Positions 1 through 38,389 of a stretch of 39,875 nt of DNA are shown one piece after another; the first letter of the stretch is position 1, and every line of letters begins with the position of its first letter. The notes beneath the pieces are model-generated. The model made no database searches, was not told the DNA's origin, and saw only the letters and a program-made list of their open reading frames with translations. The stretch spans positions 1 through 39,875 of the forward strand of contig JAJFJL010000164.1 in NCBI GenBank assembly GCA_021774055.1, read 5' to 3'. The position numbers and the translations under genes were made by a program. Source of the stretch: Nitrosomonas sp. (GTDB taxonomy: Bacteria > Pseudomonadota > Gammaproteobacteria > Burkholderiales > Nitrosomonadaceae).

Positions 1-148
1 GTAAAACTTTACGAATATAACTTGCACCGCCATAGCCTAGCTTTATTGCTTCAATAGCTGCATAACGGCGACGCTCTTTTTCTGACAAGCTGTTATAAAA
101 ATTACGCATTTGCGCTTCAATTTTTGTGGAATAAGTTCTCACTTTCAT
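1..148 (-). CDS. ISAzo13-type transposase, N-terminal fragment
   Basis: The reverse strand reads from an ATG at 148 off the window edge, giving about 49 residues beginning MKVRTYSTKIEAQMRNFYNS and continuing with LSEKERRRYAAIEAIKLGYG. A short N-terminus with a charged E(K/R)xRRRYAAxEAxKLG segment, followed by a G-G-x-x-Y-I helix-turn-helix-like stretch, is what I associate with the start of ISAzo13-family transposases. Only the DNA-binding start is visible; the catalytic domain would lie outside the window. I see no stop or frameshift in the part present, so the gene may be intact. The family call rests on remembered motif similarity. Nothing else is recognisable between 149 and 253. Confidence 0.6.
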   Translation of the reverse strand, partial: MKVRTYSTKIEAQMRNFYNSLSEKERRRYAAIEAIKLGYGGASYIRKVL

Positions 149-253
149 GGCAACAAAGGATACTTGATTCAGAGCATATTACCAACTGGTATGATTCATT
201 TAGTTTCGGGCTTTATTAAATCCTCGTTCCTTATTACTAAATATATTCAATAG

Positions 254-370
254 TGGGTAGTCCTGCACATGTAGTGGTTTTTTCAAATGTCAATACGAAT
301 TAAGGTATGAAACTTATAGTTTATTCTTGTTGTGGTTCCCCAAAAACCACTACATGTGCAGGACTACCCA
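254..370. repeat. MITE-like element with 29-bp inverted repeats
   Basis: A 29-bp terminal inverted repeat is perfect at both ends: 254-282 (starting TGGGTAGTCCTGCACATG) and 342-370 (ending CATGTGCAGGACTACCCA). The 117-bp element has no coding capacity. The tetranucleotide ATAG stands immediately outside each end (250-253 and 371-374), as a target-site duplication would. Perfect ends, small size and a flanking direct repeat are the signs of a miniature inverted-repeat transposable element mobilised by a transposase elsewhere. Its parent element is not in the window. A hairpin regulatory site is a less likely alternative. Confidence 0.65.
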
Positions 371-399
371 ATAGTGAATTAATTCAAAAAATAGATATA

Positions 400-800
400 T
401 TCAAAATAGTCAGGAGGCGCTCGACCTAGCAAGGTCGATAATTCCAGCTGGTGTAAGCCCCGTTCCGGCAAGGCAAGGCAGGTCAGCCACCGGACAGCAA
501 ACACTGGGCAGGAAAAGGTAACTCCAAATGTTAAACACGGTGTGCGTAAGTCAATAGGCAGTAAACGAAAGTTGAGGTGATTTAGCCTCGAAAGGATTCT
601 ACACGAGCAGGGCGACAGCGTGCACCTACTGGAAGCCGCCACTCTATGATACGAGAGACCAGTGTCATAAAGCTGCTTTGGGGTTGTAAAGCATGGCATG
701 TTGGACATTAGGAATAATCGGCAACTGGGGAGATCCCAAGTGGTCTTTCAAATATGAGAGTAGGTTGTGAGCTCGAGGAATCAGATGCCGCCTTAAAAGT
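400..800 (+). mobile_element. Probable 5' (domain I) fragment of a group II intron
   Basis: This stretch is GC-richer than its surroundings and full of short complementary segments, for example CTCGACC...GGTCGA near 420-434 and a GGTGATTTAGCC region near 576. It has a GTGCG motif at 542 and phrases such as GAGCAGGGCGACAGCGTG and GGGGAGATCCCAAG...GAATCAGATGCC that resemble domain I of bacterial group II introns. No reverse-transcriptase ORF and no domain V-like hairpin follows before ettA, so at most a truncated 5' part remains. The 109-codon open frame on the opposite strand (379-708) looks like an accidental frame through structured RNA. The assignment is by remembered resemblance, so confidence is moderate to low. 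Confidence 0.4.
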
Positions 801-1229: not shown

Positions 1230-2894
1230 TTACCGACTAATCGGCTTATACCGAATCCGTTTTGGTTTTGCCCCTTCTTCACCCAGGCGTTTTATCTTAT
1301 CGGCTTCATATTCTTGATAATTACCATTGAAGAATGTCCATTGTGATTCACCTTCAGCGGCCAGGATATGGGTAGCAATACGATCAAGAAACCATCTGTC
1401 ATGGGAAATTACTAGTACACAGCCAGCAAATTCAAGCAATGCATCTTCTAATGCACGTAAGGTTTCAACATCTAGATCATTGGAAGGTTCATCCAGCAAT
1501 AGCACGTTGCCACCTGAGATTAAGGTTTGCGCTAGGTGCAAGCGGCCACGTTCACCACCAGAAAGTTGGCCGATGATTTTTTGTTGATCGCCACCTTTAA
1601 AGTTAAAACGGCCGAGATAGGCACGGGCTGGGGTGGTGTATTTGCCTACGGTGAGGATATCGTTACCAGCAGATACCGCATCAAATACAGTTTTGTCATT
1701 TTCTAGTGCGTCGCGTGCTTGGTCGACATGGGCAATTTTAACGGTAGATCCAATTTTTGCTTCACCTGAATCTGGCTGTTCTTTACCGGTAATCATTTTA
1801 AACAAAGTTGATTTACCTGCACCATTGGGTCCGATGATGCCAACAATTGCTCCTGGTGGGATTTTAAGACTTAACTTGTCTATTAACAGACGATCACCGT
1901 AAGCCTTGGAAACTTCATTAAATTCGATGACTTCGTTACCTAGTCGTTCACCTACAGGGATAAATATTTCATGGGTTTCATTACGCTTTTGATAGTCTTG
2001 TGAATTAAGTTCTTCGAAGCGAGCCAGGCGGGCTTTAGATTTAGCTTGACGGCCTTTGGCATTTTGTCGCACCCACTCAAGCTCTTGTTTCATAGCTTTT
2101 CTATGCGCATCAACTTGTTTATTTTCTTGTTCTAGACGCTCTTCTTTTTGTTCTAACCAGCTAGAATAATTACCTTTCCACGGGATACCGCGACCACGAT
2201 CAAGTTCCAGTATCCATTCAGCAGCGTTATCAAGGAAATAACGGTCATGGGTTACCGCTACTACGGTCCCAGGGAAACGTACTAGGAATTGCTCTAACCA
2301 TTCCACTGATTCAGCATCTAAATGGTTAGTTGGCTCATCTAGCAACAACATATCCGGTTTTTCTAGTAATAATTTACATAAGGCAACTCTACGTTTTTCA
2401 CCGCCAGAAAGGTTTTTTATTGGCGCATCCCACGGTGGCAAACGTAGAGCATCAGCAGCTATTTCCATTTGATGTTCGGTATCACTACCGGCAGTCGATA
2501 GAATAGCTTCTAAACGTGCCTGCTCGGTGGCCAACGCATCAAAATCAGCATCTTCTTCGGCATAAGCAGCATAAACTTCATCTAGTTTTTTTTGTGCTTG
2601 CATAACTTCACCTAATGCTAGTTCTACTTCTTGGCGCACAGTATGTTCGAGATTCAATTGCGGTTCTTGTGGTAGATAACCAATATTAATATTTGGTTGA
2701 CGCTGCACTTCACCATCAAACTCTTGATCTACATTGGCCATGATTTTTAATACTGTAGATTTTCCAGAACCATTTAGTCCTAATAAGCCAATCTTTGCAC
2801 CAGGGAAGAAGCTAAGTGAAATATCTTTAATAATTTGACGCTTAGGAGGGACTGTTTTACTCACGCGGAGCATAGACATTACATATTGGGCCAT
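1230..2894 (-). CDS. ettA: Energy-dependent translational throttle protein EttA (ABC-F ATPase)
   Basis: The 554-residue protein has the family length and the characteristic start MAQYVMSMLRVSK. It carries two ABC ATPase domains: Walker A GLNGSGKST near residue 40 with signature LSGGEKRRVA and Walker B LLLDEPTNHLD, then Walker A GPNGAGKST near residue 355 with LSGGERGRLHLAQ and LLLDEPSNDLD. The linker between them (about 240-320) is the charged P-site tRNA interaction motif region of ABC-F proteins. EttA is a soluble ribosome-associated factor that gates the first peptide bond according to ADP/ATP level. The start is chosen by family match because the ribosome-binding site is weak. It lies 22 bp downstream of the DUF2835 gene and is probably cotranscribed with it. 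Confidence 0.97.
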   Translation of the reverse strand: MAQYVMSMLRVSKTVPPKRQIIKDISLSFFPGAKIGLLGLNGSGKSTVLKIMANVDQEFDGEVQRQPNINIGYLPQEPQLNLEHTVRQEVELALGEVMQAQKKLDEVYAAYAEEDADFDALATEQARLEAILSTAGSDTEHQMEIAADALRLPPWDAPIKNLSGGEKRRVALCKLLLEKPDMLLLDEPTNHLDAESVEWLEQFLVRFPGTVVAVTHDRYFLDNAAEWILELDRGRGIPWKGNYSSWLEQKEERLEQENKQVDAHRKAMKQELEWVRQNAKGRQAKSKARLARFEELNSQDYQKRNETHEIFIPVGERLGNEVIEFNEVSKAYGDRLLIDKLSLKIPPGAIVGIIGPNGAGKSTLFKMITGKEQPDSGEAKIGSTVKIAHVDQARDALENDKTVFDAVSAGNDILTVGKYTTPARAYLGRFNFKGGDQQKIIGQLSGGERGRLHLAQTLISGGNVLLLDEPSNDLDVETLRALEDALLEFAGCVLVISHDRWFLDRIATHILAAEGESQWTFFNGNYQEYEADKIKRLGEEGAKPKRIRYKPISR

Positions 2895-2916: not shown

Positions 2917-3144
2917 TTAATTATGTATACGGTGGATTGATATGAATTTATTATTGTCATCAAAAGCTAATTCAAAGGTGCCATATACACCTTCAGACTG
3001 CACCATAGAACGCAAGATATTCGCTGGAAATTTAATGGTACGGCCATCAGTTGTTTTTGCTACCACTGAATCAACCGCACCCTCATAATACTGCATGAGT
3101 TGGCTAGAAGAAATTTTTAGAACAATTCTCAATCGTTGGGTCAT
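2917..3144 (-). CDS. DUF2835 family protein
   Basis: This 75-residue protein matches the small DUF2835 family of gammaproteobacteria: an LxISxxQxMxYYxGxVxxVVA start, then TTDGRTIKFPANILRxMV and a GxFELxFDDxxKFxSI ending. No function is known for the family to my knowledge. It is soluble, with no signal or membrane segment. A strong Shine-Dalgarno (AGGAGGAG) sits 6 nt upstream of the ATG, and a TATAAT-like -10 lies on the minus strand at 3171-3176 without a good -35. It is the first gene before ettA on the same strand, with a 22-bp gap, so it may lead that transcript. Confidence 0.85.
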   Translation of the reverse strand: MTQRLRIVLKISSSQLMQYYEGAVDSVVAKTTDGRTIKFPANILRSMVQSEGVYGTFELAFDDNNKFISIHRIHN

Positions 3145-3185: not shown

Positions 3186-3298
3186 GCATCCTTCATATCA
3201 GTTCCAAAGTAGTTTACACTTTTGATGTCAAAAAAATCACACGTAGGGTGCATTCCATGCATCATTTATAACCTTGATGTGTAAAACACCACCCTACC
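3186..3298. repeat. Nested-palindrome dispersed repeat, copy 1
   Basis: The core 3243-3298 folds as GTAGGGTG...CACCCTAC with inner arms around GCATTCCATGC. The left flank GCATCCTTCAT...GTTTAC (3186-3218) is shared with the copy at 20046-20182. Here the right outer arm is missing. It fills the gap between the DUF2835 gene and the HerA-like ATPase gene. Confidence 0.8.
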
Positions 3299-3307
3299 TT
3301 CTATTAA

Positions 3308-6300
3308 TTACCCACCAAAAAGCCTACGTAAAAACGATGGAGACGAATCTGGTGATTCAGATAGTTGCTTCTGACCTGATGGCTTGTCATTGGCTAATTC
3401 TAATATTTCATCTGCAGGTATTTGTTTAGCTTGTACTAAGGAAAGGTTTGCTTTTAGGTTACAAACTTCTCCATCACTAATCGCATAAAACTCCCCAGTT
3501 GCCAAACCAGACAGTTTATTAGTAACGTCTGTTTTTGCCTCACGTAGCATTGGGCTTAATTTATTTAGTGCGGTATTTTCTTTTACTTTTCCAACAAACC
3601 AAGACGAAATCTGGTCACGTGATTTATAGTCTAAATCAGCCGGACTTTGAGTAGCCAACATCATGCCAATGCCTGCAGAACGAGCACGTTTTAATAAACC
3701 TTCTAATGGCTCTTTGGTGGCAGGTTTAGATTGTGCTGGCAAATAAAGATCAGCTTCATCAAATAGAATCACAGCTTGTAGTTGGTCACTTGGAAATTCT
3801 TTAGCGTAGCGATTTATTTCCAGCAATAACTGTGCCACCCAAAATAATATATTACTATTGCTACCAAGTGCGGCAAGGCTGATTATGCTTAAACGGGTTT
3901 TATCAGTTTCTTTGTTGGCTTCCAATCCAAACAGTTTTTGTGCATTTAGACGCTCTCCATCCTGATCAAACAGCGTGCCGTTGGTTAAGCTTAAGGTTTG
4001 TAGATCTTCTACTAATTTTTTAAATAACTTTGGATCTAACTTGCCAATTGCGTTAACCAAAAGTGGGTCTTCATTAGCGATCAAGTCAATAAGACCATCT
4101 AGAGTTAATTCTTTATCAGGGTTTTGTTCACTAATAACAGCAATAGCTTGCCCAAGAATTGCCTGTCTGGTTTTATATGCCCCTGAATCTCGATAACCCA
4201 TCACATTACCAAGAGCAAACGCAGCATAATTTGCCAGCTGCAGGCGCTCACCACTAGGTAGATGCCCGATACCATCAGGAGCAATAGAGATATTTAAGCG
4301 TCGTCCTTGGTTTTCAATTGCGCCAGGAGTATAAACAACTACTTCAATTTTAGAACGCAGGTCGTCACGTACTTCTGTTTGTGTGCTATCAGTAAGAGTG
4401 GTTGTCCATGCTGCATCTTGCGCGTAGCTACAAAGATCACCCTTACGATCTAATAAAATAGCTGGAATTCCCTGCTGTAACAGTTGCTCAATAATATTTA
4501 AAGCTAATGTAGTTTTACCACTACCAGAACCACCAAGAAATGCTGCATGGCGTAACAAGGTGGCAGTTTCTATTTGATGGGATTGTCGCTTTTCTTGATC
4601 AATACCTAGTGTTAACTGTGGTTTATTGCTTGTTGTTTTCTTTGTATCTGCTATAGCTGCAGGTGGTTTATTGATGAGAGGTGTATCTGTTGGTTTATCA
4701 GGAATTACCTCAGCTATCGCGATTGTTTCTTGATTAACAATATTTAATATTTGTTGTAGTGAGGGTAAGCTAAGCAATGGTTGCTCGTTCTTTAACCAGT
4801 CTAAAAATTCTGGATCTTCAGCATATTTTAATTTAAATGCCTGCATCGCCACCATAGTGTGCCAATCAGAACTGGCAATAATTACTTTCTGCCCCCCCGC
4901 TTTGATAAATTCCCCTAATTGTTTAGCAATTTTTGTTCGTGGTCCTGATGGGAAAGCAAGTGACCGAATGGCAATTGGCACACGTGTATTAGCGTGCAAT
5001 TGCAATTGTTCTATTTGCTTATAAAGTCCTCCACCAATTGCTTTTTTTTGACATAAACCGATAGCTAAAGACTGTATGACTTGTTCATTACCATGATCAA
5101 TATCAAGATCAATAAAGGTTTTATCTTGTGAAACTTTAAATGAAAATTTATTATTTAATTCAACTTCACAATGCTTAATTGACCAAGAAAGTAACCCAAT
5201 CATTTCATGCTCACTTCCTGGTATTGGATAGGCCCCTGTTAAATGATCGTTCCATTGTTGGTCTAGTTTTATTGAAGAAGAAATAACGTTACTTGGTATT
5301 ATTATTTCTGAAGCAGAGTCATCTGGAATATCTGTCTCAAGCATAGGAGCTTGTCCACTGGCAATTGATTGCTCGCGCTGTTTACGACAATTGTGTAAAA
5401 CATCTCTATTTTTAAGACCACTTAATTTTTCTGAAATATTTGATGGAAATGGATAGACCGGTTCATTTATATCCAATTTAACTTGCTCACTGTCGTATAA
5501 ATCCTGCAGGCGCGTAACAATCAATTCTTGTATTTCTTTAGAGTTACGCTCCAATGTCAGCGTCATCATCTCAGGATTCTTTTCTATTCGCTCAACATGA
5601 GAGGCCGGTAAATAATTTTTAAACTTATGATAAATTGTGGATAGACAAGAAATGACCACAATTACGTTAGGACTTTGCACAGCCATTATCATACTTTGAA
5701 TGACACTACGAAACTGTTTCCCTGGATCATCTGCCGACTCAACGTTTTCAAGCTCATCAAGGCAAATTACCAGCGTACCGGAATTAGTTGCCATCATTAG
5801 AGAAGCTAATGATTCCAACATACGCTGAGGATCGTGGTCTTGTGTTAGCGGGTTAATTCCTCCTAAAATATCACAATCATATTGTGATAAGTTTTCACAA
5901 CGAAGGTATAAAAAAACTCTAGCGTGAATGGCATAGTCATCTGTTTGCAAATAAAGCATGACTCGGATTAGATTAATATCTAACTTGCGGAAGTTATTAA
6001 TAGCCATAAGCTTATCAGCCATTCTGTTAATAAAATCTGAAAGATCACTTCGGTTTAACTCACCGCCACGTAAAATTTCTATATCATGTTGCGATATTTC
6101 TTCATACCCTTCAATTACCGCATTAGATAAATGCATCAAACCGGTAACACTGCCCGTTAATTCACAATATTCTTTATTAAGTGAATCAATAGTATAGCTA
6201 AGAACATAACGAGAAAATTGAGAAATATTAGGAGACATTTGCATATAAGCAAAATGTCCCAGACTATGTTCATGGGTGTAGCTACGAAGAGCGCGCATCA

Positions 6301-6526
6301 AGTGTGTTTTACCAGCCCCAGAGTCTCCTAATAACAATAAGATACGTCCAGAATTTTCAGTTGCATTGTGATTTAATAAATGCTGATAGCACTCCCTGCT
6401 ATCTTTATGAATAATTTCAACATCATATGGATCTGGCTGCCATATTTGGTTCTGATGGGTAACAGCATGAAATATGCCTAATTTAACCGGAGAACAAAAA
6501 ACTTTTAAGCGCTCATCAATCTTCAT
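3308..6526 (-). CDS. Dual ATPase: AAA P-loop domain fused to a HerA/FtsK-like motor
   Basis: The protein is 1072 residues from the ATG at 6526, chosen over an upstream frame start at 6571 because AAGGTG lies about 8 nt before it and it clears the previous gene. Domain 1 (about 50-345) has Walker A GDSGAGKT (67-74) and Walker B LVICLDELE (D257, E258), like AAA_16/ORC-type ATPases. A middle region (about 425-600) is unassigned. Domain 2 (about 640-1020) has Walker A GGSGSGKTT (665-673), an ILLDRKGD segment, Walker B AVILFDEAD (D923, E924) and KRARSAGIGMMLATQSP, which is typical of HerA/DUF87 hexameric DNA-pumping ATPases. It is soluble. It is the last gene of a three-gene unit with a nuclease, suggesting DNA translocation coupled to cleavage. 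I do not recognise a named system. Confidence 0.85.
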   Translation of the reverse strand: MKIDERLKVFCSPVKLGIFHAVTHQNQIWQPDPYDVEIIHKDSRECYQHLLNHNATENSGRILLLLGDSGAGKTHLMRALRSYTHEHSLGHFAYMQMSPNISQFSRYVLSYTIDSLNKEYCELTGSVTGLMHLSNAVIEGYEEISQHDIEILRGGELNRSDLSDFINRMADKLMAINNFRKLDINLIRVMLYLQTDDYAIHARVFLYLRCENLSQYDCDILGGINPLTQDHDPQRMLESLASLMMATNSGTLVICLDELENVESADDPGKQFRSVIQSMIMAVQSPNVIVVISCLSTIYHKFKNYLPASHVERIEKNPEMMTLTLERNSKEIQELIVTRLQDLYDSEQVKLDINEPVYPFPSNISEKLSGLKNRDVLHNCRKQREQSIASGQAPMLETDIPDDSASEIIIPSNVISSSIKLDQQWNDHLTGAYPIPGSEHEMIGLLSWSIKHCEVELNNKFSFKVSQDKTFIDLDIDHGNEQVIQSLAIGLCQKKAIGGGLYKQIEQLQLHANTRVPIAIRSLAFPSGPRTKIAKQLGEFIKAGGQKVIIASSDWHTMVAMQAFKLKYAEDPEFLDWLKNEQPLLSLPSLQQILNIVNQETIAIAEVIPDKPTDTPLINKPPAAIADTKKTTSNKPQLTLGIDQEKRQSHQIETATLLRHAAFLGGSGSGKTTLALNIIEQLLQQGIPAILLDRKGDLCSYAQDAAWTTTLTDSTQTEVRDDLRSKIEVVVYTPGAIENQGRRLNISIAPDGIGHLPSGERLQLANYAAFALGNVMGYRDSGAYKTRQAILGQAIAVISEQNPDKELTLDGLIDLIANEDPLLVNAIGKLDPKLFKKLVEDLQTLSLTNGTLFDQDGERLNAQKLFGLEANKETDKTRLSIISLAALGSNSNILFWVAQLLLEINRYAKEFPSDQLQAVILFDEADLYLPAQSKPATKEPLEGLLKRARSAGIGMMLATQSPADLDYKSRDQISSWFVGKVKENTALNKLSPMLREAKTDVTNKLSGLATGEFYAISDGEVCNLKANLSLVQAKQIPADEILELANDKPSGQKQLSESPDSSPSFLRRLFGG

Positions 6527-6536
6527 ATTAGACACC

Positions 6537-7568
6537 TTAAGACTCCAATTCAATAAGATTAAAAGTTGCACCTAAATAAGTTATTTCAGAGGCAGCAACA
6601 TCATCTAAATTCATCTCATAGGGTAAATCAGCTCTACTCAAGTTAAGTAGTCTTTTGCTATTTGCCTGCACAAGGCGTTGTTTCAATTGTTCTAAATCAA
6701 GACCAAACTGTTTATTTTCAACACCCATCTGTTCCCATACTTTAGATACAAATACTTTATTATAACCAGGCATACATGTTTGACATTTACTTGCAGAACG
6801 TAGAACTTGCGCGGCAAAAGTTTCCAAATCAAATATTTCAGAATCAATACTGGTTGCTTGAGTCGGTTTTATTGCAGCTGCCGCCCTAAGAATAGCTTGA
6901 CGTACTTCTTCTATATCAGTACGCCTAGCATTAGTAATTTTTGCGACTAATTGTTTAAGCGCAGATTCCGCAGGTAGTTCACGTGTTGTACCTAACAGAG
7001 CATTTAGTAACAACTCATTTATTTTGGCTTGTTTAAATGGTTTAGTACTATACGAAGCTAATCTTGCCTGCATACTAGTAGTTATCTGTGGGTCTGCTAG
7101 TAGTTGCCAGAGTAAACAATCACGCGCTTTGGTTATTGTTGGAAAAGGACCGCTATCTAGCTGGTAGTGTTTTGCCAAAATACTTGCACGCAGACCATCT
7201 GCACCACCAATTTGTTTTTTATCTTTATCACTTGATGGTATAGGTAGCCCTAGTGCTAGAACCATTAAATAACGATTCTTTAATACTGGCCAACTGATAA
7301 CACCAGGGATAGACGACACTCCAATAGTCTGTAATGCAGCTTGTTTACCCGGTGTAGTTATTTGAAATTTTGCTTTACTGATACGCTGTAATTTATTTTG
7401 TTTGACTAGCTGACCCAGGTCATCTTTCCAGTCATCATCTGTCGGTGCATCATTAAATAACTGCTGCAATGATTTTTTCAACTCAGTAGTAGACAAGCCC
7501 TTATCTGTTGAAGCGAGAAAGCGGATTAATATTAATTCACGTAACGTTAGGTTTTTTTCAATCTTCAT
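6537..7568 (-). CDS. Winged-helix-like protein of the HerA/nuclease operon
   Basis: The 343-residue protein starts at the ATG at 7568, where AGAAGG sits well placed upstream; an in-frame ATG at 7586 is less likely. Residues of about 8-75 (LTLRELILIRFLASTDKGLS, then a DDDWKDDLGQLVKQNKL stretch and a basic KAKFQITTPGKQA end) look like a winged helix-turn-helix with a beta wing. The rest is mostly helical with one CxxC (CQTC) in the C-terminal third. I recognise no catalytic motif. It overlaps the nuclease gene by 11 bp and ends 10 bp before the ATPase gene, so the three products are probably made together. It may be a DNA-binding or adaptor subunit. Confidence 0.75.
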   Translation of the reverse strand: MKIEKNLTLRELILIRFLASTDKGLSTTELKKSLQQLFNDAPTDDDWKDDLGQLVKQNKLQRISKAKFQITTPGKQAALQTIGVSSIPGVISWPVLKNRYLMVLALGLPIPSSDKDKKQIGGADGLRASILAKHYQLDSGPFPTITKARDCLLWQLLADPQITTSMQARLASYSTKPFKQAKINELLLNALLGTTRELPAESALKQLVAKITNARRTDIEEVRQAILRAAAAIKPTQATSIDSEIFDLETFAAQVLRSASKCQTCMPGYNKVFVSKVWEQMGVENKQFGLDLEQLKQRLVQANSKRLLNLSRADLPYEMNLDDVAASEITYLGATFNLIELES

Positions 7569-8790
7569 AGCTAACCCTTCTCCCATTTAGTTTTCTACGT
7601 TGATAATGCAATGCCTGGCGAATCCTATAAAGAATTTCTTCCAGCTTAGATAATACATCTTCAGATAAAAAACGCAGCACCAGGATTTCTTTTGTTTGTA
7701 ATTCAAAATCCTTACGTCTATCCCTACGCCAGGCATCTAAATCTTGAAAATGATAATAACCATCAATTTCTATAGCTACTTGAACTGTTGACGCAAACAA
7801 ATCAACTTCCATCGCTTGATTGCCAAATTCAAATGGTAATTTTGCATTAAGTTTAAATAAATTTTTTGTATCTGCTGTTTGCATTAATACATTAAACAAA
7901 AACAATTCAGCCTGACTACGAGCTACAGAATGATCAACATTTTTATCTGTTATCACTTGCTGAAGCGCATGAGCATCATCAAGCAAATTTTGTGGCATGT
8001 TACATTGATACAGAAATTTATTGGTTTCAATTGGTAAACCAGATGTTTTTATCTGCGGTATTACAACAACACCTGTGCGCAGCATAACCTTATCTTTAGA
8101 CTCGGTATGCTTAGAAAGGTATTCCGTTAACGTTGCAGGTTGAATTGAAAGTGCCAGCAAAATACCTGGATGGGATTCTGCAATTTGTATGATTAAATGA
8201 ACTAAATCGGAGTGATACAAGTCATCAGTAGAAACTTCTATCAGCAAACCAGGAATAATATCCAACGGCAAAATCTCTGCAAATACACTTATAATAGTCG
8301 ATATATGTTGACCTTTCTGCACCTCCAAAAAGTAAATTAAATCCACCGCTGAACCTACAGTTAATATATTATTTGCAGCAATTTGCTTAATAAACCAACG
8401 TAGTATTAATGCACAATCAACAGTAACTCGTTTGTATTGTGATTGTTGTTGCATAATATCTAACTCGTAGTCAGATTTATTTATCAACTCAACTTCAAGT
8501 TGTTTTTTTGGACATTGATGTAACTTTGCCAGATAGGTTAAAACTTCGTCGCGTAAAGTTGAATTAGCAAATAACTTCTGCAACCAGTTGGTGAATAACA
8601 ATTTTGAAGTTCCAGTAGGACAGATAGCCGTATTTCTTGCTATGCCTTTCATCCATTGCAGCCAAATATTTTTAGTATCGTTAAATGTTCCACTTAAAAC
8701 AGAAAGAGTTGGTACACCTTGGTTACGATATTGTAATTGCATATCTAACTTGGCGTTAACATGGCATTGCTTATTATGCTTAGGTTCCAT
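7558..8790 (-). CDS. Protein with C-terminal Vsr/DUF559-type endonuclease domain
   Basis: The product is 410 residues. The last 90 carry a very-short-patch-repair-like/DUF559 nuclease pattern: EVDLF (D330), VAIEIDGYYHF (E341, D343, H347), RRDRRKD (355-361) and EILVLRF. In this fold the Asp, the E-x-D-G and the His/Arg positions form the metal site. The first 300 residues have alternating helix and strand like a P-loop or AAA core, but I find no Walker A. The IEVSTDDLYHSDLVH stretch could be a Walker B remnant; this is inference. It is the first gene of the three-gene unit, overlapping the next by 11 bp. A stand-alone repair nuclease is less likely given the fused long N-terminus. Confidence 0.75.
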   Translation of the reverse strand: MEPKHNKQCHVNAKLDMQLQYRNQGVPTLSVLSGTFNDTKNIWLQWMKGIARNTAICPTGTSKLLFTNWLQKLFANSTLRDEVLTYLAKLHQCPKKQLEVELINKSDYELDIMQQQSQYKRVTVDCALILRWFIKQIAANNILTVGSAVDLIYFLEVQKGQHISTIISVFAEILPLDIIPGLLIEVSTDDLYHSDLVHLIIQIAESHPGILLALSIQPATLTEYLSKHTESKDKVMLRTGVVVIPQIKTSGLPIETNKFLYQCNMPQNLLDDAHALQQVITDKNVDHSVARSQAELFLFNVLMQTADTKNLFKLNAKLPFEFGNQAMEVDLFASTVQVAIEIDGYYHFQDLDAWRRDRRKDFELQTKEILVLRFLSEDVLSKLEEILYRIRQALHYQRRKLNGRRVSYED

Positions 8791-8841: not shown

Positions 8842-8910
8842 GGGCTTGGTGGTTTTTCAACCGCATGAGACTGGTGCAATGCCCTACGGTTATTGCACCC
8901 TACCTAGCTA

Positions 8911-20045: not shown

Positions 20046-20182
20046 CTTCATATCATCCCCAAAGTAGTTTACACTTTTGATGTCAAAAAAATTACCAGTA
20101 GGGTGCATTCCATGCACCATTTATAATGTTGATGCGTAAAACGCACTTTACCTTAAATGTAAACCGAATAATGAAGGATGCC
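20046..20182. repeat. Nested-palindrome dispersed repeat, copy 4 (most complete)
   Basis: This copy has both outer arms: CTTCATATC...AAGTAGTTTACAC on the left (20047-20075) and GTAAACCGAATAATGAAGGA on the right (20160-20179), which are inverted relative to each other. The inner core 20098-20152 reads GTAGGGTGCATTCCATGCAC...GTGCGTT-like arms. It lies between glmU and the atp terminator. Confidence 0.85.
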
Positions 20183-27573: not shown

Positions 27574-29421
27574 ATGACATTCAAGTCTCAGTTAATAAAA
27601 TCGTTGCTAAACACACCTTCATCAAGTAAAAAGTCTCAGCAAAAACAAACTAAAAAAACCACCAATCCTATTAAAACTAACAAACCAGCTGCTAAACCTA
27701 CCAACAAACCTCGCTCAAAAATTGACTCAGCAATTGAAATTAGTATAAAAAACGAAACTGCCAGAAGGGAACGCCTAAATGCTGAAGATCGTGCAATTAA
27801 AGAAGCCACTCAACGTATTGCATCAGAAAACAAAGCACGTGTCGCAGCAGAAGCACGTGCTAGAGCAGAAACCAACGCTAAAATAGCCGCTGAAGAAAGA
27901 GTTAAAGCAGAGACAGCAGCAACAAATGAAGCTAGAGCCAGAGCTAAAGCCGAAGCTATAGCGACAAAAAAAATCAACACTAGAATATCTCTAGAAACTA
28001 AAGTAAAACAGTTGGCCGAAGATAGGGCTCGCGCCGAAAATGAAATAAATATTTTACTAAAAACTAAGATACAGGCAGAAATATCAATCGTCGCAAAGGC
28101 ACGTCATCGTGCAGAACAAGAAGCCCTGGCATTAGATAAGGTAAATACAAAGGTTTTAGCTGAAAAGAAAGCTGCTGAAGCAGCTATCAACCTAAGCAAA
28201 GTCGCAGAAGAAGAAAGGTTAACTGCAATAGCTGATGCAGAAGCAAAAGCAATGTCCGCAGCAATAGCCCAAACTAAAATTCAGGAAAATGAAAAAGCAT
28301 TAGCCTTGGCCAAAGAAAAAACAGAGGCCGAAAGACAAATAATAGAAGAAATCCAAAAACATGCCAATATAGAACTAAAAATATTGGATCAAGTGCGTCA
28401 CCGTTTAGCTGAGGAAACTGCTGCTAGAAAAGTCGCAGAAGAAAGAATTCAGGCTGAAATTATTGCAACTGAACAAGCACAGATCAAACTAAGAGCAGAA
28501 ACATTTGCTACTAAAGAGGCACAAACACAAGTAAAGGCAGATATTCAAGCAACTATTGCAGCTGAAAAAAACATGTCAGCAGCACAAGAAGCCGCAGCAA
28601 TTTCACAGTCTATTATTAATACAAAAACAGCCATTACTAACATTGAACAAGAAAAAATTAAAACAGAATCCAGTCTACTTGAAGCAGTTAATAATCGCCT
28701 AGCGGCAGTAGCAAAAATACAAGCTGAAAAACAAAAAAGAATTCAGGCTAAACAACAAGAAATATTAATTTTAAAAGAAAAAGGTGATGCTGAGATTGCA
28801 GCTACAACAGCAATCCAAGCACGCATTAAGATAGAAAAAGAAGTTGCAGAAAAAGTTCGAGAACGTACCGCAGCAGATACAATTGCTATCACTACTGAAA
28901 GAAACAAGCTTATTGCTGAGAACAATGCTAAAAAAATTGCACATGAAAGCATTAAAGCCAATACCTTAGCCACAATAGAAGCAAATAATTTAGCTGAAAT
29001 GGAGAAACAACAGCTAAAAAATGCAGAACAACGTATCGAAGCTATTTCTCAAGCCAAACAAACTGTAGCAGAGCGCCTCAAAACTGAGCAAGCTATAACA
29101 CAACTTGCTATGACCAGAACCCAAGAAAAAATAGCTGCACTTGCTGCTGCTAAGTCTAGATTGAAGCTAGAAGAAACAGCTGCTGCTAAAGCTACAACTA
29201 GAGCTGAAACCGAAGCTGCTGTATTAGTTGCGATTAAAAAACGAATTGATAGCGACAAGCTAGCAACAGAGCGAGCAGTAGCCCGTAAAGAAGTAGAAAC
29301 TATGGCCCAAGAAGCAGCGCAAGCACGCGCCAAAATTGACAGAAAAGCAACAGCTGAAGCAACAACTAGAATAAGGGCAGAAATTGCAAGTGCCAAACAA
29401 GTTCGTAATAAAACAACTTGA
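27574..29421 (+). CDS. Large Ala/Glu/Lys/Arg-rich coiled-coil protein
   Basis: The 615-residue protein is almost entirely helical, with no recognisable catalytic domain. Residues 1-50 are Lys/Pro/Thr/Asn-rich (KTTNPIKTNKPAAKPTNKPR). From about 55 to the end runs a degenerate repeat built on phrases like ARARAETNAKIAAEERVKAE and KARHRAEQEALAL, with A/E/R spacing compatible with a long coiled coil. There is no signal peptide or membrane helix, and Cys is absent. TolA, M-protein-like or cytoskeletal filament proteins have similar composition, but I cannot assign one. The start ATG has a weak ribosome-binding site. It diverges from the atp operon, where parB/gid genes stand in many gammaproteobacteria. 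Confidence 0.75.
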   Translation: MTFKSQLIKSLLNTPSSSKKSQQKQTKKTTNPIKTNKPAAKPTNKPRSKIDSAIEISIKNETARRERLNAEDRAIKEATQRIASENKARVAAEARARAETNAKIAAEERVKAETAATNEARARAKAEAIATKKINTRISLETKVKQLAEDRARAENEINILLKTKIQAEISIVAKARHRAEQEALALDKVNTKVLAEKKAAEAAINLSKVAEEERLTAIADAEAKAMSAAIAQTKIQENEKALALAKEKTEAERQIIEEIQKHANIELKILDQVRHRLAEETAARKVAEERIQAEIIATEQAQIKLRAETFATKEAQTQVKADIQATIAAEKNMSAAQEAAAISQSIINTKTAITNIEQEKIKTESSLLEAVNNRLAAVAKIQAEKQKRIQAKQQEILILKEKGDAEIAATTAIQARIKIEKEVAEKVRERTAADTIAITTERNKLIAENNAKKIAHESIKANTLATIEANNLAEMEKQQLKNAEQRIEAISQAKQTVAERLKTEQAITQLAMTRTQEKIAALAAAKSRLKLEETAAAKATTRAETEAAVLVAIKKRIDSDKLATERAVARKEVETMAQEAAQARAKIDRKATAEATTRIRAEIASAKQVRNKTT

Positions 29422-33116: not shown

Positions 33117-33764
33117 ATGTCAGTTAGACGATTACCGGTTTATATTGCAATAGATACTTCTGGTTCGATGCGTGGTGAGCCGATCGAATCTGTTAATGTT
33201 GGTTTGCAAGCGATGTTGCAAGCCATGCGTCAGGATCCATATGCACTAGAATCAGTTTATTTAAGTGTGTTTACTTATGATATAGAAGTAAAAGAGTTGT
33301 TTTCTTTAACGCCGCTAGAAGATGTGCAGATGCCAATAATATCTTGCCCGCAATCTGGACCAACTCATTTAGGTGAAGTGTTAAAACGAATTGTGGAACG
33401 CTTTGATGGTGACATTAAAGCTTCTAATACCGAAGGTAAGGGTGATTGGCGACCGATGCTGTTTGTGATGACTGATGGTGTACCTTCAGATATTCAGTTA
33501 TTTAATACTATGGTTCCAGAAATTAAAAGACGTGCTTTTGCTAGTGTGATTGCTTGTGCCGCTGGGCCAAAGGCTAAAACAGAATACCTTAAGAAATTTG
33601 CAAATCAAGTGGTTAGTCTTGATACTACTGACAGTGCAGCTTTTGCTGCATTCTTTAAGTGGGTATCTAGCAGCATTGCTGCTGGTAGTGCCAGCAGTGG
33701 AGTTTCTACAGAAAAAGCAGATGTATTACCGCCGCCGCCAGATAAAATCCAAATAGTATTGTGA
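33117..33764 (+). CDS. TerY-like von Willebrand factor A protein
   Basis: The 215-residue protein is a single vWA domain with an intact metal-ion-dependent adhesion site: DTSGS (D13, S15, S17), T83 in SGPTHLG and MTDG (D120). The start MSVRRLPVYIAIDTSGSM is typical of the TerY family. In the TerY-P triad described for tellurite-resistance-type stress systems, TerY is encoded beside a PP2C phosphatase and a Ser/Thr kinase, as here. The C-terminus has a PPPPDK tail. AAGGAG lies upstream. It is probably the first gene of the cluster. Confidence 0.88.
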   Translation: MSVRRLPVYIAIDTSGSMRGEPIESVNVGLQAMLQAMRQDPYALESVYLSVFTYDIEVKELFSLTPLEDVQMPIISCPQSGPTHLGEVLKRIVERFDGDIKASNTEGKGDWRPMLFVMTDGVPSDIQLFNTMVPEIKRRAFASVIACAAGPKAKTEYLKKFANQVVSLDTTDSAAFAAFFKWVSSSIAAGSASSGVSTEKADVLPPPPDKIQIVL

Positions 33765-33829
33765 GTAAATATAGGCTAGGCATGCCTTGTCTCTAGCGTT
33801 TATTTTTTATTTTAAAAGAGGTAATGATT

Positions 33830-34864
33830 ATGCGCAGATTACCAATCTATTTTCTTCTGGATGTGTCTGATTCTATGGTCGGGCAGCCACGGCAGCTGCT
33901 TGAGAAAGGAATAAAAAGTATTATTCAACATTTGCGCTCAGATCCACATGCTTTGGAAACAGCGCATGTTTCGGTGATCGCTTTTGCTGGCAAAGCTAAA
34001 CAATTGGTTTCCTTAACCGACTTGATCAATTTCACTCCGCCTAAGTTGCCGATTGGTTCTGGCACGGCACTTGGTTTAGGTGTAACTGAACTAATGAAAG
34101 CTATGCAGCGTGAGATTATTCCGACCACTAAAGAGCAAAAAGGGGACTGGAAGCCACTGGTTTATATTCTTACCGATGGTAAACCTACGGATAGTTATGC
34201 GGAAGTTTTTACCCGCTGGCAACAAGAGTTTGCTGGTAAGGCACATATTATGGGTATTGGCTTAGGTGAATATGCGGCAACCGATGTATTGTCGCAGATT
34301 TGCGAGCAAGTATTTATTTATAACGGTGAAAATGAACAAAAATTTGCTGGCATGATTCGTTGGATTACTAGCTCAATTAGCGCCGTGAGTGAGTCTCCAG
34401 GTAAAGTTGATTTAAGTAAACCCTCTATTGGCATTTCTTTTGATAAGAATGGCTTGATGCAAGTATCAGCAGGGATGACGATTCGTCAGGATCAGGATGC
34501 GGTTATTTTGCTTGGCCGTTGCCAAACCAATAAACAATTGTTTCTAGTTAAGTACGATAGAACTAAAGCATTTGATGCTAAAGCAGCTGATATTTTTCAA
34601 TACGCCGGTTCACATATTATTGATGATGGTTATTTCGCCTGGTCAAACGAATTAGATAGTGATGCGCTATCTGTGCGTTCTGATCAATTGTGGGGGCCTT
34701 TTGCTTGTCCTTATTGCGGTGCAAATTATGGCGGGCAATGTGGTTGCGGTAAAAGCATGTGTATGGAACAAGAGCAACGTGTTGTGACATGTCCTTGGTG
34801 TGATGCTCAAAGTGAATTTTCTGGTGAAGGCAAGAGTTCTGAGATAACTCGTTCTAGTGGCTGA
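33830..34864 (+). CDS. TerY-like vWA protein with C-terminal zinc ribbon
   Basis: The protein is 344 residues from the ATG at 33830 (AGAGG 8 nt before); an ATG six bases earlier is too close to the ribosome-binding site. The vWA domain (1-190) has an intact MIDAS: DVSDS (D11, S13, S15), GSGTALG and ILTDGKPTD. Residues of about 205-290 are beta-rich. The C-terminal TerY-C-like part has FACPYCGANYGGQCGCGK and VTCPWCDAQ, Cys pairs for zinc. It is paralogous to the preceding gene (RRLPIYFLLDVSDSM against RRLPVYIAIDTSGSM), suggesting a tandem duplication with an added domain. Confidence 0.88.
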   Translation: MRRLPIYFLLDVSDSMVGQPRQLLEKGIKSIIQHLRSDPHALETAHVSVIAFAGKAKQLVSLTDLINFTPPKLPIGSGTALGLGVTELMKAMQREIIPTTKEQKGDWKPLVYILTDGKPTDSYAEVFTRWQQEFAGKAHIMGIGLGEYAATDVLSQICEQVFIYNGENEQKFAGMIRWITSSISAVSESPGKVDLSKPSIGISFDKNGLMQVSAGMTIRQDQDAVILLGRCQTNKQLFLVKYDRTKAFDAKAADIFQYAGSHIIDDGYFAWSNELDSDALSVRSDQLWGPFACPYCGANYGGQCGCGKSMCMEQEQRVVTCPWCDAQSEFSGEGKSSEITRSSG

Positions 34865-34887
34865 AGGTGAAAATCTAAGAAAAAGTA

Positions 34888-34929
34888 AGGGACGAGTCTA
34901 AATGGATAAAGTATTATTTCCTCGTCCCT
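34888..34929 (+). promoter_or_regulatory. Hairpin just upstream of the PP2C gene
   Basis: AGGGACGAG (34888-34896) is inverted at 34921-34929 (CTCGTCCCT) with a 24-nt loop. It ends immediately before the Shine-Dalgarno AAGGAGAG (34930-34937) of the PP2C gene, so the stem could affect access to the ribosome-binding site. TAAGGGACGAG also occurs at 14321-14331, so it may be a dispersed motif. Confidence 0.45.
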
Positions 34930-34945
34930 AAGGAGAGTCAGAATT

Positions 34946-36661
34946 ATGCGTGATCCTCGTTATATTATTATTCAAGCAATTAATGATTTTTATGGTGGTA
35001 GTGCTAGTGATGAAGAATTAACTGATTTTTTAGCTGTTCCACAAAATAAAATGATGCTAGCTGAAGTGTTAGCTAAAGTTAATACACAGTTTGAACAATT
35101 CCAAGAAAATAAGCGTAACAAAGATAATGTTAAACATCCTTTTGAACAACAAGATATTGTTGTTAAGCTGAATAAGAATTTACCAGCGGATGATGCAGTA
35201 ATAGAACCTGATTCTACAACAAAGCCAATTAAAGATACGCCACCTAAATATTCTAAATCCAAGTGTGGCGTTTTCCGCCCACAAAGTACAGATGTTGTAG
35301 CAAAGCATACGTTTGAACAGCTACAAGAAAGCAATCCTAAACAAAATAAGACTGTTGGTGATAATGAGAAGAAATTAGTTCAAGTAAAAAACTCACCATC
35401 AAGTACAAAACCAGCAGTATCATCTTATTTACCTGATCCAATTTCAATAAAAGCAGTTTATTCTAAATCTGAAGATGTTGTTTTTCGTCTGCAAAATGCT
35501 CGTGTCGGGGCAAAATATGATAATGCGGTAGAACAAGATAGTAGCGTAAATATAAAAATTACTAACATTCTTGATTTAGCAGAATTAGGTTTACAGTGGG
35601 ATCAAGAGCAGTACAAAATTATTGGTACACCGACAAAGGATGGCTCTTATCCATTAAGAATCGTTTATAGCTATGATGGAAAAGTTGATAAATATATCGC
35701 TACAATAGAACTAGTCGTAATCAGCGACCCAAAAAATTTATGGAAAGATCTTCCTTCTGACCAATCAGTTGCTTTTTGGAAAACAGATGATGCCTATTCT
35801 GGTATTGCAAGTAACAATTATGTATTGGCAGGGGCTAGTCGCCGAGGGCGTAGTCATGCACATATTGGCTCTTGTCGTGATGATGATTTTAATTTGTTAC
35901 CTAGCACTAACAATGGCTGGCAGATTCTTGCTGTAGCTGATGGCGCAGGATCTGCCAAATTTTCTAGGGAAGGTGCCAGAATAGCGGTACATACAAGTAG
36001 CGATTTATTAGTTAAAGAACTAGATAATCATGATGATGAATTGTTAGCTGCAATGAATAAATACCACCAATCTGAGGGTGTAGAACAAAATCTACAAAAT
36101 ATTGTTTATAGTGTTTTTTGTAATCCAATTTATAAAGTAGTGGAAGCAATTCATGAATTAGCCGGACAACATAAAGCTTCATTTAAGGATTTTTATACCA
36201 CGTTACTTATTGCCGCACATAAAGAAATTAATGGCCGTCATTATGTAATTGGCTATTGGCGTGGTGATGGTGCTATGGCATTGTTTAGCGAGAATAATTG
36301 TCTGAATCTACTAGGTTCTCCTGATGGCGGTGAATATGCTGGCCAAACAAGATTTATGGATACCAGTGCAGCGTTGCAAGAAGATATTTTGACACGTGTT
36401 AAGTTTGCTGTTGTTGATGATATAAGTGCGATATTTTTACTAACCGACGGCATTACTGATCCTATGTTTAAATCTGAGAATGATTTGCGCGCACTTACCG
36501 CATGGGATAACTACTGGCATCAACAAGTAAAACCACAACTTAGTAATGATCCTAAAGAAAGTGCCAAGAAACTTTGGAAATCTTTAGATTTTTGGTCCCC
36601 TGGAAATCATGATGATCGTACTATTGCTGTGCTTTATAAAAAGAATGTTTCTGATTCTTAG
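34946..36661 (+). CDS. PP2C-type protein phosphatase with Ig-like region (TerY-P triad)
   Basis: The protein is 571 residues. The N-terminal 50 residues are helical. A Lys/Asn/Ser-rich linker (about 55-165) is followed by an Ig-like He_PIG-type region (about 185-258) with LGLQWDQEQYKIIGTPTKDG. The PP2C domain (about 290-565) has the metal-binding motifs AVADGAGS (D332), YWRGDGA (438-443), LLTDGITD (498-505) and NHDDRTI (554-560). It should dephosphorylate Ser/Thr on targets of the adjacent kinase. YSKSxxxVFRxQ occurs twice (about 102-113 and 172-183), suggesting internal duplication. There is no membrane segment. Confidence 0.85.
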   Translation: MRDPRYIIIQAINDFYGGSASDEELTDFLAVPQNKMMLAEVLAKVNTQFEQFQENKRNKDNVKHPFEQQDIVVKLNKNLPADDAVIEPDSTTKPIKDTPPKYSKSKCGVFRPQSTDVVAKHTFEQLQESNPKQNKTVGDNEKKLVQVKNSPSSTKPAVSSYLPDPISIKAVYSKSEDVVFRLQNARVGAKYDNAVEQDSSVNIKITNILDLAELGLQWDQEQYKIIGTPTKDGSYPLRIVYSYDGKVDKYIATIELVVISDPKNLWKDLPSDQSVAFWKTDDAYSGIASNNYVLAGASRRGRSHAHIGSCRDDDFNLLPSTNNGWQILAVADGAGSAKFSREGARIAVHTSSDLLVKELDNHDDELLAAMNKYHQSEGVEQNLQNIVYSVFCNPIYKVVEAIHELAGQHKASFKDFYTTLLIAAHKEINGRHYVIGYWRGDGAMALFSENNCLNLLGSPDGGEYAGQTRFMDTSAALQEDILTRVKFAVVDDISAIFLLTDGITDPMFKSENDLRALTAWDNYWHQQVKPQLSNDPKESAKKLWKSLDFWSPGNHDDRTIAVLYKKNVSDS

Positions 36662-36670
36662 TACGATTTA

Positions 36671-36755
36671 GGTATCTTTCATGCTCCGACTTACATTAAG
36701 GCAGGGTGCGTTTTACGCACCAACGTCATAAATGGCGCATGGAATGCGCCCTACT
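36671..36755. repeat. Nested-palindrome dispersed repeat, copy 5, inside the TerY-P cluster
   Basis: GTATCTTTCATGCTCCGACT (from 36672) corresponds to the outer arm, and the core 36700-36755 reads GCAGGGTGCGTTTTACGCAC...AATGCGCCCTAC. It splits the phosphatase and kinase genes by 177 bp, where other members of such clusters are usually close. It may attenuate or process the transcript. Confidence 0.8.
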
Positions 36756-36838
36756 ATAAAGGGTGTCAAAACCTGGAAGATCTAAAAAATACGGCGACCA
36801 ATACACCAGAAGTTGTAACTCTAATCAAGGAAAATCAT

Positions 36839-38353
36839 ATGGTCATGACCAGAGTTAGACGAGCGCATAGTGAAGATGGTAAAGCTTTTGAGTTTGAAGA
36901 GACTATGATTGGTTCAGGTGGCATGAAAGATGTCTATTTCAGTATGGATGGACAAAATGCTGTAGCTTTTTACCGTGCAGCACTAGATGCAACCGCAATG
37001 GAGCGGATTAATATTTTAACTGGGCGTTACAAAGAACGTATCTTTGAGCAAGATGGCGGTGATTACTGGAAAAATCTTTTATGTTGGCCAACCCATGTAG
37101 TGAAAGATGAACAAGATGGGCGGGTTGGTATTGTTATGCCAAAATATCAAACACATTTCTTTTTTGAACATGGTTCGTTTAATAACGATGTGTTAGGTAT
37201 CTGTGGTAAAGAAAAAGAAGGCAAATGGTATGCTTCACCCCGTAATCGTTTTAAATTTCTTGCCACCAATGAACGTGGTAATTGGCTTAGTTATTTACGT
37301 ATTTGCATATTAATTGCCCGTGCAGCCAAACGTTTACATGCCGCTGGTTTGGCACATTCTGATCTAAGCTATAAAAATGTTTTAGTTGACCCAGTGGGTG
37401 GTAATGCTTGCATTATTGATATTGATGGCTTAGTTGTACCAGGACGTTTCCCCCCAGATGTAATCGGCACGCCAGATTTTATTGCTCCAGAAGTCATCAA
37501 AACACAGAATCTACAACGTGACGACCCTAAACGTTTTCTACCAAGTATTGATACAGACAGATATGCCCTGGCGGTATTGATCTATATTTACATGTTCTTG
37601 CGTCACCCGCTGAAAGGCAAAAAAATTCATGATATTGATGATGTGGATCGTGATGAACAACTTAGTATGGGTGAGAAAGCTTTATTTGTTGAACACCACA
37701 GCGATAGCAGCAATCGTATTGACAAGAAAATCTTAAGACCAGAAGAAACATTCTGGGGCGATACCAATAAACTTCCTTATACGATTGCAGGGCCTTATCT
37801 AGCCAAATTATTTGAGCAAGCTTTTATTGACGGTTTGCATTTCCCAGAAGCAAGGCCTTCCGCCGATGAATGGGAACAAGCATTAATTAAAACTGTAGAT
37901 TTAGTGCAACCATGTGCGAATAAATCTTGCGAACAAGGCTGGTACGTATTTGATAACAGCACTAGACCAAAATGTCCATTTTGTGGAACACCGCATAAAG
38001 GCAAGCTACCTATACTAAATCTTTACTCCAGCCGCGACGGTGCCGACTTCATGCCAGATAATCATCGTTTAATGGTTTACACCAACCAAGCATTATTTCC
38101 CTGGCATGTTAATCGCTTAATCGTTCCAAATGAACGTATGACTGACGCACAAAAAGAGCGTGTTGGTTATTTTGTGCTACATGATCAGCGTTGGTTATTA
38201 GTGAATGAAAATATGCTGGGACTTACTGATATGACCACCAAACAAGCAATTACCATAGGTGAACATATTGAACTTAAAGATGGCTCGCAACTTCTTCTTT
38301 CTAAAGAAAATGGTGGCAGGTTGGTTGTGGTGCAAATGGTTACTGCAAGGTAG
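36839..38353 (+). CDS. Ser/Thr protein kinase with C-terminal zinc ribbon (TerY-P triad)
   Basis: The protein is 504 residues. The kinase domain (about 15-350) has the glycine loop GSGGMKDVYF (25-34), catalytic loop HSDLSYKN (173-180; D175, N180), metal-binding DID (194-196, in place of DFG) and GTPDFIAPEV in the activation segment. No canonical Ala-x-Lys is apparent after the loop; VAFYR (42-46) is there instead. A zinc ribbon follows (C359, C364, C379, C382), then an FHA- or beta-sandwich-like tail (about 410-504). In TerY-P triads this kinase is paired with PP2C and TerY. AAGGA precedes the ATG. Confidence 0.88.
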   Translation: MVMTRVRRAHSEDGKAFEFEETMIGSGGMKDVYFSMDGQNAVAFYRAALDATAMERINILTGRYKERIFEQDGGDYWKNLLCWPTHVVKDEQDGRVGIVMPKYQTHFFFEHGSFNNDVLGICGKEKEGKWYASPRNRFKFLATNERGNWLSYLRICILIARAAKRLHAAGLAHSDLSYKNVLVDPVGGNACIIDIDGLVVPGRFPPDVIGTPDFIAPEVIKTQNLQRDDPKRFLPSIDTDRYALAVLIYIYMFLRHPLKGKKIHDIDDVDRDEQLSMGEKALFVEHHSDSSNRIDKKILRPEETFWGDTNKLPYTIAGPYLAKLFEQAFIDGLHFPEARPSADEWEQALIKTVDLVQPCANKSCEQGWYVFDNSTRPKCPFCGTPHKGKLPILNLYSSRDGADFMPDNHRLMVYTNQALFPWHVNRLIVPNERMTDAQKERVGYFVLHDQRWLLVNENMLGLTDMTTKQAITIGEHIELKDGSQLLLSKENGGRLVVVQMVTAR

Positions 38354-38389
38354 TCGGATAGAATTTGGCAAAATATGAGGGAATGATGA

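Follow-up and report, generated by a model that had tools for sequence, protein, structure and literature searches.

What does a compact unit of three adjoining genes on a Nitrosomonas contig do, and is it a system that already has a name? The unit, here called C-B-A or the trio, lies in a 39,875-nucleotide stretch of the ammonia oxidiser Nitrosomonas sp. (contig JAJFJL010000164.1 of assembly GCA_021774055.1; the whole of this stretch is the window) and consists of three long open reading frames (ORFs), all on the minus strand, that run from 8790 to 3308 (about 5.5 kb). An earlier note, made from the letters alone, had singled it out as an unrecognised combination of nuclease, winged-helix protein and dual ATPase. 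Here we consider, with moderate confidence, that the trio is a mobile module for the ATP-driven capture and cleavage of invading DNA, built as a variant of a class of HerA/FtsK machines so far predicted from domain composition.

The three adjoining genes on one strand are real: they recur in 12 further genomes of the genus with their order kept, and this order, together with gene identities of 41–57% in the Nitrosomonas alignments and ratios of nonsynonymous to synonymous substitution (dN/dS) of 0.12–0.34, argues that the ORFs are not chance. By gene, dN/dS in three pairs was 0.12–0.17 for A, 0.16–0.34 for B and 0.26–0.29 for C, indicating purifying selection. The ORF of B (6537–7586) yields 349 aa with its upstream ATG and 343 aa with the second ATG, and that of A (3308–6571) yields 1087 aa with a GTG start and 1072 aa with the ATG at 6526; the 11-bp overlap of C and B and the 10-bp gap between B and A given in the note are exact when the inner starts are used (Table 1).

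Table 1. Coordinates of the trio, of its domains and motifs, and of a free copy of one domain on a viral contig
Feature	Location	Strand	Length	Remarks
Gene C	7558..8790	-	410 aa	N-terminal degenerate P-loop-like region and C-terminal DUF559/Vsr-type nuclease
Degenerate P-loop-like region	C residues ~20-285	-		putative, from sequence pattern
DUF559/Vsr-type nuclease domain	C residues ~290-400	-		E295, D330, E341-x-D343, H347, Q365
Gene B	6537..7568	-	343 aa	two winged-helix(-like) ends, helical middle
N-terminal winged helix	B residues ~5-110	-		structural model
Helical middle	B, between the two ends	-
C-terminal winged-helix-like domain	B residues ~248-343	-
Gene A	3308..6526	-	1072 aa	ORC/STAND-type AAA+, alpha/beta domain, HerA motor
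ORC/STAND-type AAA+	A residues ~1-390	-		AAA_16 and NACHT in Pfam
AAA+ Walker A GDSGAGKT	6305..6328	-		residues 67-74 from 6526 start
Alpha/beta domain, REase-like element order	A residues ~439-570	-
HerA motor	A residues 634-1037	-		HerA_C/DUF87 in Pfam
HerA Walker A GGSGSGKTT	4508..4534	-		residues 665-673; GKTT in 22/22 covering rows of alignment A6
HerA Walker B LFDEAD	3749..3766	-		residues 921-926; D923 and E924 in 23/23 rows of alignment A6
Free B C-terminal domain	L152:7980-8351			viral contig

The largest protein, A, joins an AAA+ ATPase, an alpha/beta domain and a HerA-type motor in one chain. The AAA+ and HerA identities proposed earlier were borne out by Pfam (AAA_16, NACHT, HerA_C and DUF87), and in the aligned sequences both Walker sites fall at the positions first read; the HerA arginine pair and sensor Q are also conserved in the rows that cover them. 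The AAA+ Walker B had been read as carrying DE, which holds for the window but does not extend to the family as a rule: DE occurs only in the window and in locus L034, and the other 19 of the 21 covering rows of alignment A6 read DQ. Structural models show the HerA fold, the best structural neighbours of A being HerA, DndH, VirB4 and anti-phage HerA complexes, with HerA-NurA and HerA-DUF4297 chains among them. The profile of A also matched Cdc6 chains (E 0.006), and BrxC_BrxD (PF10923) scored 0.0011 on A, below the Pfam cut-off. By its sequence the N-terminal AAA+ belongs to the ORC/STAND clade, an assignment that reaches the level of the clade and not the Orc/CDC6 subclade.

Directly after the AAA+ lies the alpha/beta domain, with the element order helix-three strands-helix-strand-helix-strand, in which E456 (21/21 rows) and Q504 (22/22) are invariant and C492, at the place of the acid of an ExK motif, is kept in 21 of 22 rows. 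The possible identification of this domain as an inactive restriction endonuclease (REase) is drawn from just this element order and these three residues. Among PDB sequences, designed TFD proteins (1.7e-4, 48 positions) and an APS kinase (0.029) came up, and both were regarded as chance.

The winged helix proposed for B is backed by a structural model. B had nothing above cut-off in Pfam, neither B nor C matched any of 5027 PADLOC models, and comparison of B and of its C-terminal domain with PDB sequences gave nothing convincing. Foldseek returned common winged helices besides MukE/MukF, a listing that does not exclude other families; a KITE-like or MukE identity was set aside, the matches (MukE/MukF at E 0.08–0.35 in Foldseek, Pfam MukE at 0.15) being too weak.

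For C, the nuclease identity suggested at first reading was confirmed by Pfam (DUF559, 6.8e-6, above its cut-off), and a PDB match was the endonuclease-like protein 3hrl (E 4.8e-4). The nuclease-fold residues are conserved as well: each of the 15 sequences aligned has E341, D343, H347 and Q365, and E295 and D330 are present in all 14 that cover them. In front of this domain C probably carries a dead P-loop, a reading that follows from the sequence pattern and is clearest in the relative L151, where the degenerate loop reads GPSGLGSHAF.

The co-occurrence tally that the note had called for shows the three genes to be linked. C was found at E <=5e-99 in 13 of 149 relatives searched, a count that includes the window genome, and these 13 belong to a single genus; nine more relatives gave short DUF559 matches only. 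B was found in the same 13 genomes out of the 85 of that genus and, among 369 sampled across the window's class, in the window alone. C-B-A was contiguous and co-oriented in 12 of the 12 other loci fetched. The proteins have also diverged in step: pairwise distances of A, B and C correlate at 0.93–0.96 overall (n=11–18 loci, with L042, L049 and L053 dropped) and at 0.88–0.97 within Nitrosomonas (n=7–9; 0, 2 and 0 of 2000 permutations as high). Of the 13 Nitrosomonas sequences, the wide alignments held 10 for B and 9 each for C and A, L045 and L047 being unaligned and L035 left out of the C alignments owing to an in-frame TAG.

Beyond these relatives, a scan for A across species-representative genome contigs gave 29 loci: 10 in Nitrosomonas, nine in cyanobacteria (Petrachloros, which we take to be one, included), five in Hyphomicrobiaceae or unclassified Pseudomonadota, two in myxobacteria (counting Paraliomyxa, presumably a member), and single loci with the titles Bacteroidales, Planctomycetales and Verrucomicrobia. 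The full C-B-A order was present in all 10 Nitrosomonas loci and in six cyanobacterial loci (L043-L046, L048, L049); L042 and L047 start inside the operon, and L064 holds frame-broken pieces of A only. The Bacteroidales locus keeps A and B, with C in frame over only its final 93 codons or so, and in the Myxococcales metagenome-assembled genome (MAG) of L063 the trio lies on another contig (L067), where C is cut by the contig start. In a Planctomycetales locus the front half of A is missing (L056:9123-10160), with an ORF at the break that is transposase-like by eye.

In the class of one of the cyanobacteria B occurred in nine of 338 genomes, with C visible beside it in eight and A in eight, each missing C or A lying beyond a contig end. 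B was found in 39 of 297 genomes of the Hyphomicrobium order (28 at <=1e-39, the rest weak), in four of 282 of the Paraliomyxa phylum (one weak), in one of 198 of the order of the Bacteroidales MAG (itself) and in two of 199 of the planctomycete phylum (one, at 3e-4, probably chance). Full C-B-A units were present in L149 (planctomycete phylum) and L151 (Paraliomyxa phylum). Several named Nitrosomonas strains carry the trio, and several phyla are represented among its hosts.

The identities of A do not follow the species tree. Window A is 52–57% identical to the Nitrosomonas copies, 49–50% to those of cyanobacteria and 38% to those of Bacteroidales and Paraliomyxa, and 32.5–35.0% identical to the Hyphomicrobiaceae/Pseudomonadota copies; this indicates horizontal spread, and the trio evidently moves between lineages. 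Its surroundings change too: among 116 flank proteins of 12 Nitrosomonas loci none recurs in more than three loci, and whole flanks are common to L029/L030 and to L032/L034 alone, with further single matches of L024 with L032/L034, L026 with L028 and L030 with L035. On the side of an ABC-F-type gene of the window (1230-2894), compared on the left of the trio with up to 1.5 kb of flank from each of 29 relatives' loci, homology stops at 3090-3138 in nine, short of the stop codon of A by some 170 bases or more, and we claim no clean empty site from these ends. Repeats flanking the trio had been likened to those of an accessory island; they are only copies of a dispersed 10-bp element, TGCACCCTAC, that is not specific to the trio. 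It has seven matches with at most one mismatch across the window where 1.5 are expected (e.g. 3243-3252, 8894-8903, 20098-20107), two of them bracketing the trio in opposite orientation.

A second form of the locus, an unexpected one, lacks the nuclease. By profile, within the stretches read, 21 loci carry B-A without C (L054, L057, L058, L060, L061, L062, L135-L148, L150), most of them from Hyphomicrobiales; for the first six the rest of the genome was searched as well, with a single short DUF559-type match in each of three and none in the other three. The motor motifs are kept in the six nuclease-free loci that were aligned. Of the 28 genomes in the Hyphomicrobium order that have B at <=1e-39, long flanks were retrieved for 14 besides G520. 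In these 14 loci (L135-L148) homologues of one gene stand upstream of B in 13 (CAP by Pfam in the two tested), and genes for a flippase, a DD-carboxypeptidase and a transglycosylase are common to 10, nine and seven; in this order B-A occupies mostly one site, which is fixed and vertically inherited.

Is the trio then a known system? None of Pfam, NCBIfam, PHROGs and PADLOC names it as a unit: PHROGs gave no named counterpart, NCBIfam had no match above cut-offs among the matches listed (HerA_antiphage scored 44 bits on A against a cut-off of 800), and full-text searches of the literature, judged by listings and main text, gave no paper naming it. The exact trio may still be unrecognised, as it was called in the note, but its class is not, since the same set of domains was described in 2024 under the name of Orc/CDC6-coupled HerA/FtsK capture systems (PMC10853773). 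In that work Rakesh, Aravind and Krishnan report on mobile neighbourhoods that combine an Orc/CDC6 ATPase and an adjoining inactive REase with an active REase, HerA/FtsK and a winged helix, the domains being spread over one or several polypeptides (PMC10853773). In their proposal the ORC part serves to localise the machine, and HerA to intercept invader DNA and pump it to the nuclease (PMC10853773), a proposal restated by overlapping authors in 2026 (PMC12839542). In the main text of the 2024 paper, the active REase is of one of two families, one of them AbiJ-type, the inactive REase lies between the AAA+ core and a C-terminal winged helix, and a subset has a separate protein with two to four winged helix-turn-helix domains (PMC10853773).

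Judged by that main text, the trio shares an AAA+ of the ORC/STAND clade, HerA/FtsK, winged helix and mobile neighbourhoods with the capture class; its active-looking nuclease may correspond to the active REase, and its alpha/beta domain possibly to the inactive one. It differs in that AAA+, alpha/beta domain and HerA are fused in one protein, that no winged helix is seen in A between the alpha/beta domain and HerA, where one would follow the inactive REase, the winged helices being in B, that the DUF559/Vsr-type nuclease sits on what is probably a dead P-loop, and that a B-A form does without it. The likeness to other systems is narrower. HerA-DUF4297, an experimentally shown anti-phage complex (PMC11291478), and HerA-SIR2 (Nezha) pair a HerA motor with an effector enzyme as the trio does, but C is DUF559-type, A has an additional AAA+ and alpha/beta domain, and B is a third protein. 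The best PADLOC match of A was mad8 of MADS (4.1e-22, on the HerA part; HerA-type models reached 2.2e-14 at best and cover A only in part), with mad3 on the AAA+ part at 2e-4, but the mad8 model is a single HerA domain of 314 positions and nothing of MADS matches B or C. The HerA motor of A is close to DndH; however, DndH models touch only this part of A (8.9e-6 at best) and neither B nor C, and the SWI2/SNF2, methylase and TRD domains given for DndH in the text of PMC10853773 were not seen in A. Similarly, the ORC-type AAA+ of A can be likened to BrxC/BrxD of BREX through PF10923, but no BREX model is among the 24 PADLOC families that touch A and none matches B or C; a BrxHI/BrxHII helicase model matched two of the 116 flank proteins of the relatives (among at least 25 PADLOC families listed).

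On the reading we favour, in which the trio captures and cleaves DNA, A would encircle double-stranded DNA as a ring, with its ORC/STAND AAA+ part loading or positioning the complex and its HerA part pumping the DNA; the winged helices of B would choose or hold the DNA and make the bridging contact to C, whose nuclease, on its probably dead P-loop, would cut what is fed to it. Invading DNA (phage, plasmid or conjugating element) would be the most likely target, and a defence function is plausible by analogy with the HerA systems above. Several observations weigh against this reading. The 21 loci that keep A and B without C argue that cleavage by C is not needed in every host; among the 13 Nitrosomonas C genes, that of L035 (genome G045) has one in-frame TAG, being otherwise open, and A of L028 ends early, after 814 codons and 76 bases short of the end of its contig. 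The N-terminus of C has no convincing sequence match (AAA_22 in two of 14 members, best 0.054), and the alpha/beta domain of A has neither a Pfam match nor a convincing relative among PDB sequences. The neighbourhoods show no clear excess of defence genes: at 1e-15, PADLOC models of at least 25 families were found among 116 neighbour proteins and of 19 among 116 control proteins, in tallies that count families and not proteins, the control being 116 of 195 ORFs from four genomes, in which 12 stretches of 20 kb were picked arbitrarily. Both lists are dominated by TnpB/Cas12f-type models; the neighbours include one ThsA-type and one ThsB-type match, HNH, helicase (BrxHI/DpdF-type) and TnpB-like (Cas12f-model) matches, and the controls MADS, ZorB, AriA, TniQ and TnpB-like matches. 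This comparison is not decisive, and we do not use it as support for the trio.

The nuclease-free loci would suit a different role, with A-B a translocase for chromosome maintenance or repair in the manner of HerA-NurA, whose chains are among the best structural matches of A, and with C an occasional partner and defence not the main job; the 14 Hyphomicrobiales loci with B-A, fixed and vertical, speak for it. We think this unlikely, as the trio is patchy (B in 13/85 and 9/338 genomes, and, of 369 sampled in the window's class, in the window alone), changes its site and is spread across phyla, unlike housekeeping repair. A triggered A-C complex might instead deplete ATP and cut host and phage DNA alike, as HerA-DUF4297, a structural neighbour of A, is reported to cleave double-stranded DNA, hydrolyse ATP and work by abortive infection (PMC11291478), but the extra AAA+ of A and the DNA-binding-type folds of B argue for a DNA-directed complex, which makes this variant decidedly unlikely. 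That the trio has no part in defence and instead serves a mobile element in its transfer, segregation or maintenance, its HerA part being related to conjugation ATPases, seems very improbable: out of the 12 Nitrosomonas loci no more than three have any one flank gene in common, B of the window had no match at E 1e-5 among 72,556 records of plasmids and 50,697 of phages, and A of the window matched five plasmid records, each partially (29–51% of its length).

A free copy of one domain of B adds a viral side to the question. A 103-kb viral contig, L152 (IMGVR_UViG_3300032177_000002), has a 124-codon frame that corresponds to the C-terminal domain of B alone, with 41–46% identity over 94–114 residues to Nitrosomonas B and 39–45% to cyanobacterial B, its best scores being to Nitrosomonas. 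This was the one locus that the B profile found in IMG/VR, where the A profile gave four short HerA-type matches (24–38% identity); the viral ORF itself had no match in the phage records and one weak match in the plasmid records (Xanthobacter, 3e-3). One possibility is that the copy serves as a decoy against the trio, which makes it a candidate for counter-defence; another is an unrelated use of the domain, suggested by Paraliomyxa G515, which carries the B domain inside four open frames of 2257–2814 codons (L131-L134). Tentatively, and with considerable doubt, we can also picture B-A as a self-standing translocating core that has its own function, needs no nuclease and has been domesticated at one site in Hyphomicrobiales, with C turning it into a mobile restriction machine and the free viral copies of the B domain as a possible decoy.

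The ORC/HerA capture class has so far been proposed from domain composition, and the trio offers a compact, practical test case for it, in which the nuclease-free B-A form provides a natural separation of motor from effector.

Elsewhere in the window, the four other genes scanned in Pfam were a metallophosphatase, a CHASE3-GGDEF protein, the ABC-F-type ATPase and RuvB. At 33117-38968, on the plus strand, five ORFs, of which two are VWA/TerY-like, one PP2C-like, one kinase-like and one small (labels read from the translations), form a group that resembles a TerY-type phosphorylation cassette. Rfam matched a group II intron (D1-D4-6, 77.6 bits) at 454-693. A repetitive, very A/E/K-rich plus-strand ORF of 615 aa lies at 27574-29421, with a strong AT skew (0.41 at 28–29 kb).

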